Assembly (NCBI RefSeq): GCF_041261445.1
Contig: NZ_JBGCCU010000039.1
Location: forward strand, 1-64,000
Direction: 5' to 3'
Source: Catenulispora sp. EB89
GTDB taxonomy: Bacteria > Actinomycetota > Actinomycetes > Streptomycetales > Catenulisporaceae
DNA length: 64,000 nucleotides
Position 1 is the first letter of the stretch. Each line of letters starts with the position of its first letter. Below the pieces are notes generated by a model. That model saw nothing but the letters and a program-made list of their open reading frames with translations, had not been told where the DNA came from and ran no database searches. The translations under genes were made by a program, and so were the position numbers. This document shows, in pieces, positions 1 through 43,134 of the stretch.

Positions 1-200
1 GCTGCACCGGCCTGGGTAGCCGCGCCAGCCTGGGCAGCTGCACCGGCCTGGGTAGCCGCGCCAGCCTGGGCAGCTGCACCGGCCTGGGTAGCCGCACCAA
101 CCTGGCCAGCTGCACCAGCCTGGCCAGCCGCGCCAACCTGGGTAGCCGCGCCAACCTGGGTAGCCGCGCCGGCCTGGGCAGCCGCACCAGCCTGGCCAGC
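1..200 (-). repeat. 18-bp coding minisatellite (hexapeptide repeat) inside the S66 gene
   Basis: About eleven 18-bp units occur in tandem. On the minus strand they encode hexapeptides such as QAGAAA, QAGAAT, QVGAAT and QAGAAG. A 9-nt Arg/Gly/Val-rich variant (about 201-236) links them to the peptidase domain. The array continues beyond the left edge, so its full length is unknown. It stays in frame with the S66 frame throughout. Confidence 0.9.
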
Positions 201-38944: not shown

Positions 38945-40234
38945 ATGCCCCATATGTACGACTGGGACGAAGTCCTGCGCGACGCCGAGCGCCAGCCCGG
39001 GGCCGGCCCCGGCGGCGAGGACCGGATCATCGTCAACATGGGCCCGCAGCACCCCTCGACCCACGGCGTGCTGCGGCTGATCCTGGAGATCGAGGGCGAG
39101 AGCGTGGTCGAGGCCCGCTGCGGCATCGGCTACCTGCACACCGGGATCGAGAAGAACCTGGAGTACCGGAACTGGACCCAGGCGGTGACGTTCCTGACCC
39201 GCGCCGACTACCTGATGCCGCTGTTCAACGAGACCGTGTACTGCCGCGCGGTCGAGGCGCTGCTCGGGGTCGAGGACGAGGTGCCGCCGCGCGCCAACGT
39301 CATCAGGGTCCTGCTGATGGAGCTGAACCGCATCTCCTCGCACCTGGTGGCGCTGGCCACCGGCGGCATGGAGCTCGGCGCGATGACCGTGATGACCAAC
39401 GGTTTCCGGGACCGCGAGCCGATCCTGGACATCCTGGAGGCGGTCACCGGCAACCGGATGAACCACGCCTACGTCCGGCCCGGCGGTCTGGCGCAGGACC
39501 TGCCCGACGGGGTCGTCGACGACATCAGGACGCTGATAGCCGAGTTCCCGAAGCGGCTGCTGGACTACGAGCGCCTGCTGAACGCCAACCCGATCTTCAT
39601 GGGCCGGACCAAGGGCGTCGGGTACCTCGATCTGGCCGGGTGCATGGCCCTGGGCGCCACCGGCCCGGTCCTACGAGCCACCGGCCTGCCGCACGACCTG
39701 CGCAAGTCCGAGCCGTATCTGGGCTATGACACGTACGACTTCGAGGTGCCGACCGAGACCGGTTGCGACGCCTACGGCCGCTACCTGGTCCGCCTGCACG
39801 AGATGGCCGAGTCGCTGCGCATCGTCGAGCAGGCCCTGGACCGCCTGGAACCGGGCCCGGTGATGCTCGCCGACCCGAAGATCGCCTGGCCGGCCCGGCT
39901 GGCGCTCGGCGCCGACGGCCTGGGCAACTCCGAGCAGTGGATCCAGCACATCATGGCGCAGTCGATGGAGGCGCTGATCCACCACTTCAAGCTGGTCACC
40001 GAGGGCTTCGCGGTGCCCGCCGGGCAGGTGTACTCCTGCGTGGAGTCCCCGCGCGGCGAACTCGGCGCGCACGTGGTCAGCGACGGCGGCACCCGGCCGT
40101 TCCGCGTACACCTGCGCGACCCGTCCTTCACACACCTGCAGGCGGTGTCGGCGATGGCCGAGGGCGGGATGCTGGCCGACGTCGTGGCGGTGGTGGCGTC
40201 GGTGGATCCGGTGCTGGGCGGGGCCGACCGCTGA
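38945..40234 (+). CDS. nuoD: NADH-quinone oxidoreductase subunit D (stand-alone)
   Basis: A 429-aa 49-kDa-type subunit. Family signatures are [77 protein letters not shown] and the C-terminal [29 protein letters not shown]. It lines the quinone site of complex I together with NuoB. No other nuo gene is nearby, so it is either a second copy or a displaced subunit. ATG 38945 and ATG 38954 are both possible; neither has a clear ribosome site. Confidence 0.95.
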
Positions 40235-40263
40235 CCGGCTCCCGCGACGACTTCACACAGGTA

Positions 40264-40291
40264 TTGACTGCGCACGTCCCGTGACTAGGTT
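40264..40291 (+). promoter_or_regulatory. Sigma-70-type promoter before a 34-codon ORF
   Basis: TTGACT (40264-40269) and TAGGTT (40286-40291) are separated by 16 bp. Transcription would start about 25 nt before the ORF at 40324. The -10 merges with GGTTCGAACC, a palindrome that might be an operator. Confidence 0.6.
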
Positions 40292-40323
40292 CGAACCAAT
40301 CGGACTCTGCAAAGGGGACGCAC

Positions 40324-40428
40324 ATGAACCAGAAGCACAAGTTGCGGCGACGCCACGGCAAAATCCGCCGCCATCGTACGATCGCCCACATCCGCCACCA
40401 CCACCTGCAGGGCAGGCACCTCGGTTAG
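40324..40428 (+). CDS. 34-aa His/Arg-rich basic microprotein
   Basis: The ORF encodes MNQKHKLRRRHGKIRRHRTI followed by AHIRHHHLQGRHLG: 18 of 34 residues are Arg, Lys or His. AAAGGGG lies 6 nt before the ATG, and a good promoter is 33 nt further upstream, so it looks expressed. I recognise no family; a nucleic-acid-binding or ribosome-associated peptide is conceivable from charge alone. It stands alone between nuoD and the flavin monooxygenase. Confidence 0.6.
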   Translation: MNQKHKLRRRHGKIRRHRTIAHIRHHHLQGRHLG

Positions 40429-40495
40429 CGACGCGCCGGAATCTTCTTTACACAAACCCTTGTCGCGTAAAGCATCGTCGGCCACACTGAGGGAC

Positions 40496-41971
40496 ATGGA
40501 GCATTTCGACGTGGTCGTAGTCGGCGCGGGCCTTTCCGGGATCGGCGCCGGGTACCGGCTGCAGACCGAATGCCCGGAGCGCAGCTACGTGATCCTGGAG
40601 GCGCGCGCCGCGATCGGCGGTACCTGGGACCTGTTCCGGTACCCCGGCGTGCGGTCCGACTCGGACATGTTCACGCTGGGATACCCGTTCCAGCCCTGGC
40701 GCGGCGCCGATTCGCTGGCCGACGGCGCCGTGGTGCTGGACTACGTCCGGGAAACCGCGCGGCGGTACCGGATCGAGGAGAAGATCCGGTTCCGGACCAA
40801 GGTGGTCGGCGCCGACTGGTCGAGCGAGCAGGCGCGCTGGACCGTCGCCGTCGAGCAGACCGGGGACGACGGATCCGTCGAGCGCCGCACGCTGACCTGC
40901 GACTTCCTCTACTCCTGCGCCGGCTACTACAACTACGACAGCGGCTACACCCCCGACTTCCCGGGCGTCGAGGACTACCAGGGCACGGTCGTGCATCCGC
41001 AGCTCTGGCCGGAGGACCTGGACTACGCCGGCAAGCGGGTCGTGGTCATCGGCAGCGGCGCGACGGCCGTCACCCTGGTCCCCGCCCTGGCCGCGGACGC
41101 CGGGCACGTCACCATGCTCCAGCGCTCCCCGACCTGGATCAGCCCGCTGCCGGGCCGGGACAAGGTCGCCGACCAGCTGCGCGCCGTGCTGCCGTCGAAG
41201 GTCGCGCACCGGATCATCCGCGCCAAGAACATCGGGCTCACCGTCGCCGTCAACCAGTTCTGCCGCCGGCGTCCCCAGGCCGCGCGCAAGCTGTTCACCA
41301 AGCTGGTCTCCCGGGTCGTGAAGGACGACGAGATGGTGCGCGAGCACTTCACGCCGAGCTACAACCCGTGGGAGCAGCGCGTGTGCGCGGCGCGCGACGC
41401 GGACTTCTTCCGCGCGATCCGCTCCGGCAAAGCCGACGTGGTGACCGACCACATCGAGGCGTTCGTGCCCGAGGGCATCCGGCTGAAGTCGGGCCGGGTG
41501 CTGGCGGCGGACGTCGTCGTCACCGCCACCGGCCTGCGGCTGCTGGCCTTCGGCGGGATCGCGCCGAGCGTGGACGGCGTCGAGGTGCCGCTGGCCGAGC
41601 AGTTCGTGTGGCGCGGGGCGATGGTCACCGGGATCCCGAACTTCGCGGTCTGCGTCGGCTACACCAACGCCTCCTGGACGCTGCGCGGAGACCTGAGCTC
41701 GCGGCTGGTGTGCAAGATACTGAACCACATGGCGGCGCGCGGGTACTCCTCGGTGGTCCCGGTGCCCGACGGCACGCTGCGCGAGCGGCCGCTGCTGGAT
41801 CTGAGCTCGGGCTACATCCAGCGCTCGATCCAGGAGTTCCCGCGAGCCGGGCACCGCAGCCCGTGGCGGGTGCGGCAGAACTACATCCTGGACGCGGCGA
41901 CCACACTGCGGAACGACCTGGACCGGACGCTGCGGCCGACGCGGCGGGAGAAGGCGGGAGTGGGTTCCTGA
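40496..41971 (+). CDS. FAD-dependent monooxygenase (Baeyer-Villiger/FMO type)
   Basis: A 491-aa flavoprotein. The FAD-binding Rossmann motif is [12 protein letters not shown] at residues about 6-17, then [25 protein letters not shown], a BVMO-like segment, the NADPH-binding GSGATAV in [13 protein letters not shown], and [11 protein letters not shown] near the C-terminus. It should insert oxygen into a ketone or heteroatom substrate using NADPH. ATG 40496 gives the correct N-terminus with GAGGGA upstream. A CTTTAC/GTAAAG inverted repeat (40446-40472) precedes it. Its stop overlaps the SDR start (TGATG), so the pair is coupled. Confidence 0.9.
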
Positions 41972-43134
41972 TGGCCGACGGCGGTGCTTCCGGTTCGGGC
42001 TCTGGTTCTGGTTCTGGTTCTGGTTCGGGTTCCGGTTCTAGCTCTAGCTCTAGTTCGGGCTCTGGTTCCGGTTCTCGTTCTAGCTCTAGTCCTAGTCCTA
42101 GTTCGGGCTCTGGTTCCGGTTCTCGTTCTAGCTCTAGCTCTAGTCCTAGTGCTAGCTCGGGCTCCGGTTCTAGCTCTAGCTCTAGCTCTAGTGCTAGCTC
42201 GGGCTCCGGTTCCGGTTCTCGTTCGAGTGCTAGTTCGGGCGCCGGTTCCGACCAGGCGGCGCTGGGAGCCCTACCCGGCGTCCGCGTGACGCCCAAACTC
42301 ACGCCGTTCCGCTTCAACGGCGCGGTCGCGGTGGTCACCGGCGCGGCCGGCGGGATGGGGGAGCAGCTCGCCTACGGCCTGGCGCTGCGCGGCTCGCACC
42401 TGGTGCTGGTCGACCGGGACGCCGACCGGCTGGACGGCGTCGCCGCCACCCTGGCTCGGCGGCGTCCGGAGACGAGGGTGCGGACCTTCGTCGCGGACCT
42501 GTCTGACGCCGGCTCGGTCGCCAAGCTCGCCGCCGCTGTCCTGGACGCCGAACCGGTCCTCAACCTGCTGATCAACAACGCCGGCGTGGCGCTCGCCGGG
42601 ACGTTCGCCGAGACCACGGCCGAGGAGTTCGACTGGGTGATGGCGGTCAACTTCGCCGCGCCGGTGGCTCTGACCCGGGCATTGCTGCCGCGGCTGCGGG
42701 AGTCGGCCGGCAGCCACATCGTCAACACCTCCAGCCTGTTCGGGCTGATCGCGCCGCCCGGTCAGACCGCCTACTCGGCGAGCAAGTTCGCGCTGCGCGG
42801 CTTCACCGAGGCGCTGCGGCACGAGCTGGCCGGCGAGGTCGGGGTGACCAGCGTGCATCCCGGCGGCATCAAGACCCGCATCGCCCTGGACGCGCGGGTG
42901 GCCTCCGGGGCCGACAAGGAGCAGAGCGAGAAGGCCATGCGCGCCTTCAACAAAGTTCTGACGTACCCGGCCGACCGCGCCGCCGCCCGGATCATCGAGG
43001 GCGTGCGGCACCGGCGCGGCCGCGTGCTGATCGCGTTGTCGGCGCGGGTGCCGGACGTGCTGGCCCGGTTGTTCCCGGCAACGTACTGGGAGTTCTTCGT
43101 GCGGCTGAACCCGCGTGCGGGCCGGCGTCGCTAG
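41971..43134 (+). CDS. Short-chain dehydrogenase/reductase with Ser/Gly-rich N-terminal extension
   Basis: A 387-aa protein. Residues about 7-92 are almost only Ser and Gly with a few Arg, Pro and Ala; the SDR begins at about residue 115 ([20 protein letters not shown], the TGxxxGxG cofactor site). Other SDR signatures are [10 protein letters not shown], the catalytic Ser in VNTSSLFGL and the YSASK motif ([16 protein letters not shown]), and [13 protein letters not shown]. Normal SDRs of this class have 270-290 residues. It is coupled to the monooxygenase, so the two probably act on the same substrate, as in lipid or ketone metabolism; a downstream internal start would remove the repeat but none with a ribosome site is obvious. 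Confidence 0.88.
41989..42246 (+). repeat. Coding hexanucleotide microsatellite
   Basis: About 258 bp made of 6-bp units such as GGTTCT, GGTTCC, AGCTCT and TCTAGT. The array encodes Ser-Gly or Ser-Ser pairs and uses TCT, AGT and GGT codons that are rare elsewhere in the window. It remains in frame. Confidence 0.9.

Follow-up and report, generated by a model that had tools for sequence, protein, structure and literature searches.

Genes as short as 34 codons are easily missed by annotation. The locus described here raises the question of whether such an open reading frame (the microORF), lying between a nuoD-like gene and a flavin monooxygenase-like gene of Catenulispora sp. EB89, is a genuine gene and, if so, what its His/Arg-rich product might do. 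The window, i.e. the whole stretch of DNA that was analysed, is 64,000 nt (64 kb) long. The features of the locus are as follows, with counts out of ten referring to the Catenulispora genomes compared.

38945..40234, + strand: NuoD-like gene (complex I 49 kDa family, Pfam PF00346), the upstream neighbour.
40264..40269, + strand: putative -35 hexamer TTGACT, read from the sequence and identical in 10/10 genomes.
40270-40285, + strand: promoter spacer of 16 nt, of the same length in 10/10 genomes.
40273..40283, + strand: inverted repeat CACG-TCC-CGTG within the promoter spacer, a possible operator, read by eye.
40286..40291, + strand: putative -10 hexamer TAGGTT (TAGGTT in 6/10 genomes, TAAGTT in 4/10).
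40311..40317, + strand: ribosome-binding site AAAGGGG, invariant in 10/10 genomes and 6 nt before the ATG.
40324..40428 (stop included), + strand: gene for the 34-aa His/Arg-rich microprotein, ATG to TAG, supported by alignment, selection analysis and an AlphaFold2 helix.
40447..40471, no strand assigned: inverted repeat TTTAC-N15-GTAAA, probable operator of the monooxygenase gene and border of the microprotein unit, in 10/10 genomes.
40460..40488, + strand: TTG[TC]CG-17-CA[CG]ACT, probably a promoter that serves the monooxygenase gene alone, in 10/10 genomes, this role being putative.
40496..41971, + strand: flavin-binding monooxygenase-like gene (Pfam FMO-like, PF00743), a neighbour outside the microprotein unit.

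Basic residues occupy 19 of the 34 positions (56%; 8 His, 8 Arg and 3 Lys), in agreement with the preliminary description, which had put them at more than half. The window contains 183 ORFs with a length of 25-60 aa; no other among them reaches 50% H/R/K, and no other has the promoter pattern TTGAC[ACT]-16..18-TANNNT within 80 bases upstream. The pattern occurs once in the 64 kb, both strands considered, and a Shine-Dalgarno-like 5-mer at -20..-5 is found before 17 of the 183 ORFs. The pattern was defined after the site had been seen, and a generic sigma-70 scan called no promoter at the microORF. The silence of the scan is explained by the -10 hexamer, as TAGGTT agrees with TATAAT at 3/6 positions and falls under the scan threshold. 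Given a post hoc pattern and an empty scan, the case for the microORF was rested on its relatives.

Conservation of the frame in relatives, the lack of which was among the refuting results named in the preliminary description, was found. A DNA search (query 39900-40700) recovered the locus in all nine other genomes of the genus that were sampled, giving a set of ten in which G003 is 81% and G006 77% complete and G001 is 6% contaminated. An intact 34-codon ORF of constant length is present in 10/10, and in each the next gene downstream is the same flavin monooxygenase gene. The start codon is GTG in eight genomes and ATG in two, and the stop is TAG or TGA. Counting the start Met, 24 of the 34 alignment columns are invariant, and where K, R, H and Q replace one another the charge is mostly preserved. 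Of the 33 columns at each codon position, 6, 8 and 24 vary at positions 1, 2 and 3 respectively, and mean NG86 values over 45 pairs are 0.083 for dN and 0.683 for dS (mean dN/dS approximately 0.12). The invariance of 23/33 internal residues was reached in none of 5000 column shuffles (mean 11.5, maximum 18), and stops arose in 4176 of these 5000. The five other frames over the same stretch have 8-17 invariant columns; two other frames, one per strand, are stop-free in 10/10 genomes, with only 10 and 8 invariant columns. This codon pattern is that of a protein under purifying selection, and a conserved frame so selected is what is looked for in a protein-coding gene. It is therefore well supported by the alignment that the 34-aa ORF is a genuine gene, a chance origin being excluded mainly because the ORF is conserved in relatives.

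Its own genome contains a single strong match to the microprotein (E 2e-15), followed by one at E 0.8, and each of the genomes compared has one strong locus. The nuoD-like gene is set apart from the microORF unit by approximately 1 kb of other sequence in G003 and approximately 2.3 kb in G006, and despite these inserts the promoter, microORF and monooxygenase gene are still found together. Judged by eye, the insert of G003 (L035 1440-2470) holds an opposite-strand ORF resembling the phosphotransferase/kinase family, and that of G006 (L034 1206-3500) a long opposite-strand ORF resembling a caspase-type peptidase.

The relatives also bear on the promoter and ribosome site that the preliminary description had assigned to the microORF, since promoter-like and ribosome-site sequences recur in 10/10 genomes of the genus. 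The distance from the -10 hexamer to the start codon is 32-33 nt in all ten, and the arms of the CACG-NNN-CGTG spacer repeat are, by eye, intact in nine and altered in G006. Taken together with the features listed above, the promoter is most likely of the housekeeping type and the ribosome site strong. When a regulon was sought, with up to 3 mismatches allowed, the genome held no copy of the whole promoter pattern besides this one. For the 5' leader motif, 8 additional matches were obtained at 2-3 mismatches, compared with 2 for the reversed control.

Downstream, the -10-like hexamer of the monooxygenase gene ends 6-7 nt before its ATG in 10/10 genomes, which would make the transcript near-leaderless, and the TTTAC-N15-GTAAA repeat overlaps this probable promoter in all ten. 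An inverted repeat over a probable near-leaderless promoter suggests a repressor-controlled unit. The sequence from the microORF stop to the repeat varies among the ten genomes and is 18-129 nt long. Two transcription units are probable here, one with the microORF and the other with the monooxygenase gene. In G008 (L009 about 2023-2145), short tandem repeats with a unit of approximately 18 nt lie between the two genes, and similarly repetitive spacers are seen by eye in G007 and G009.

How far the gene extends beyond the genus was assessed with a 10-member profile. In an order sample of 391 genomes, only the 10 genomes of the genus were matched at E<=1e-3; at E<=1, matches were found in 279 of the 391. 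The best order match outside the genus (E 0.003) was rejected, falling within a 430-aa open frame. Three non-genus matches in a class sample of 296 (E 0.004-0.007) were judged to be due to chance; the open frames that contain them are longer (481, 59 and 82 aa) and two of the three are, by eye, antisense to ordinary genes. This inspection covered the three class matches and 5 weak order matches, with one frame per strand. A phylum sample gave a single match at E<=1e-3 among 296 genomes, the genome itself; there is overlap among the three samples. Scanning of genome contigs yielded six loci, five from Catenulispora and one from a Catenulisporales MAG, three of the six being MAGs and all coming from relatives already compared. 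Among viral contigs, 0/37 stretches with the pattern were confirmed as the microprotein. For another genus of the same family (G010, G012 and G013), the stretches around nuoD-like and monooxygenase-like matches hold no TTGACT...TA[AG]GTT promoter, and their 13 listed ORFs of 20-60 aa with more than one third basic residues include none that is microprotein-like by eye. As far as sampled, the microprotein gene therefore appears to be a genus-level gene of Catenulispora, with the qualification that a short, diverged relative could escape each of these searches.

Searches of known families were consistent with the earlier claim that the microprotein is undescribed. No match was found at E<=10 in Pfam (searched with two members), NCBIfam or PHROG, and the PDB returned one chance-level chain (60S L34, E 6.6). 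No description of the microprotein was found among the open-access full-text matches listed. As far as searched, it would represent a new small orphan family, ordinary in kind.

With this in mind, the reading we prefer, at a probability of roughly 0.45, is that of a genus-restricted, separately transcribed cationic peptide, a single helix, that binds a polyanion, most likely RNA or DNA. The housekeeping-type promoter and strong ribosome site would lead to expression of a 34-residue, approximately 56% basic peptide, which would fold as one long helix to give a densely cationic rod and would bind the polyanion via the conserved Arg/His/Lys positions of RRRHG, RRHRTIA, IR and GRHLG. AlphaFold2 predicts a single helix over residues 3-33 (mean pLDDT 87.4, pTM 0.47) from 7 closely related sequences, the five models spanning pLDDT 74-87; a lone helix predicted for a short charged peptide carries little weight as evidence. 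No amphipathic pattern was seen, the helical moment at 100 degrees being no higher than in shuffles and the hydrophobic residues forming no face. Binding of nucleic acid is suggested by charge and conservation, and binding of a polyanion fits the dense positive charge and the variable positions, where substitutions are mostly confined to K, R, H and Q. Arginine-rich or protamine-like peptides bind nucleic acid and share with the microprotein a high Arg/His content and a predicted single helix; however, no sequence relation to them was found, and for the microprotein such binding is a prediction.

The preliminary description had also offered ribosomes and metals as partners, and both ideas have lost ground. 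A lineage-specific ribosomal or ribosome-associated protein, threading into rRNA as bS22, bL37 or bTHX do, would account for the size, charge and strong ribosome site, which resemble those of tiny ribosomal proteins, and for retention of the microORF in 10/10 genomes. Its codon adaptation is poor (0.31-0.49 for the 10 ORFs, compared with 0.65-0.87 for 18 ribosomal-protein genes, which were picked by eye from translations and themselves define the index). Since the neighbouring genes, both ordinary, reach 0.71 and 0.67, the index is a poor discriminator between ribosomal and ordinary genes, and it is simulations that carry the argument. When the same peptide is simulated with ribosomal usage, all ten ORFs rank no higher than the lowest 0.15%, and 8/10 lie above the lowest 5% when the usage is that of the neighbours, a background of two genes only. 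Codon usage like that of ribosomal-protein genes, which is typical of the class and not strictly defining, is thus not seen in the microORF, and the small size of a 34-codon gene restricts the weight of this comparison. The genus' own bS22 scores 0.58-0.69 in 9/10 genomes; the tenth (G007) scores 0.402, measured from a start too far upstream, the script-set bS22 starts being uncertain. The microprotein is not itself the bS22 of this genome, as bS22 was found above its curated cut-off at a separate locus in 21/21 genomes, and with two members searched it has no match to PF08213 at E<=10, so does not belong to bS22/COX24_C. Actinobacterial bS22 (AURKAIP1/COX24_C) is similar in being extremely basic and 33-39 residues long (its start being uncertain), but is Lys/Arg- rather than His/Arg-rich. 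The tiny basic ribosomal proteins bL37 and bTHX, which the microprotein likewise resembles in size and charge, were covered by the general Pfam/NCBIfam searches, which gave no hit at E<=10, and by the PDB search with its one chance-level chain. With poor codon adaptation, no convincing match beyond the genus in the samples examined and a separate bS22 gene, a core ribosomal role is weakened and the ribosomal explanation is unlikely. Slightly more doubtful is a His-based binder of metal or polyphosphate, or else a peptide that targets membranes or the cell surface, notwithstanding the 8 His of this copy, the HHH at 25-27 and the strong positive charge. HHH is found in just 3/10 genomes, the histidines at positions 5, 22, 25 and 29 are swapped for K, R, Q or L (Tyr also being among the residues that replace His at several positions), and no hydrophobic stretch is evident by eye to accompany the lack of amphipathicity.

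Two further explanations dispense with a free-standing peptide. Polybasic nascent chains can slow ribosomes, and the invariable position of the microORF directly before the monooxygenase gene could mean that it encodes a leader peptide and that its translation, or stalling on it, regulates that gene. Such a role is weakened by the separate conserved sites, probably promoter and operator, before the monooxygenase gene, though read-through transcription from the microORF may occur, and by the inconstant length of the spacer between stop and repeat. Moreover, no covarying RNA structure was found in the aligned region (double changes at 3/72 predicted pairs, covariation term +0.66), nor any Rfam match at E<=1. 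The his leader, an amino-acid attenuator leader peptide, is similar in being a short His-containing ORF before an enzyme gene; in contrast, the histidines of the microprotein are not all kept as His, the downstream gene has promoter-like sites of its own and no covarying fold is present. We consider a leader peptide quite improbable. A non-coding feature, with the ORF being incidental to an sRNA or to regulatory DNA, could draw on the strong conservation of the bases from the -35 hexamer to the ribosome site, but the third-position variation, low dN/dS and constant ORF length speak strongly against it, as does the lack of RNA covariation, and it is barely credible.

For the nucleic acid-binding peptide that we favour, abundant expression is doubtful given the low codon adaptation. 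A bolder version, which we regard as a long shot, would have it as an RNA-binding peptide of new origin, essential or nearly so, and a component of the ribosome or nucleoid in Catenulispora only; its gene would have emerged in the gap upstream of the monooxygenase gene, equipped with a housekeeping promoter of its own. If true, this would be a datable new gene that gained a fixed role in a core machine. Small basic proteins confined to one genus are to be expected as a class, and the microORF is no surprise by itself. Its codon-level selection, conserved promoter-like and ribosome-site sequences and clear borders speak for its reality with unusual clarity, and make it a good candidate for studying the origin and role of lineage-restricted basic microproteins.

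Elsewhere in the genome, a further nuoD-like DNA match is found at C2:72140-72472. Beyond the monooxygenase gene, an ORF at 41971-43134 begins inside its stop codon, and by this overlap the two are probably co-translated. By eye, this ORF has a long Gly/Ser repeat first, followed by short-chain-dehydrogenase-like sequence.
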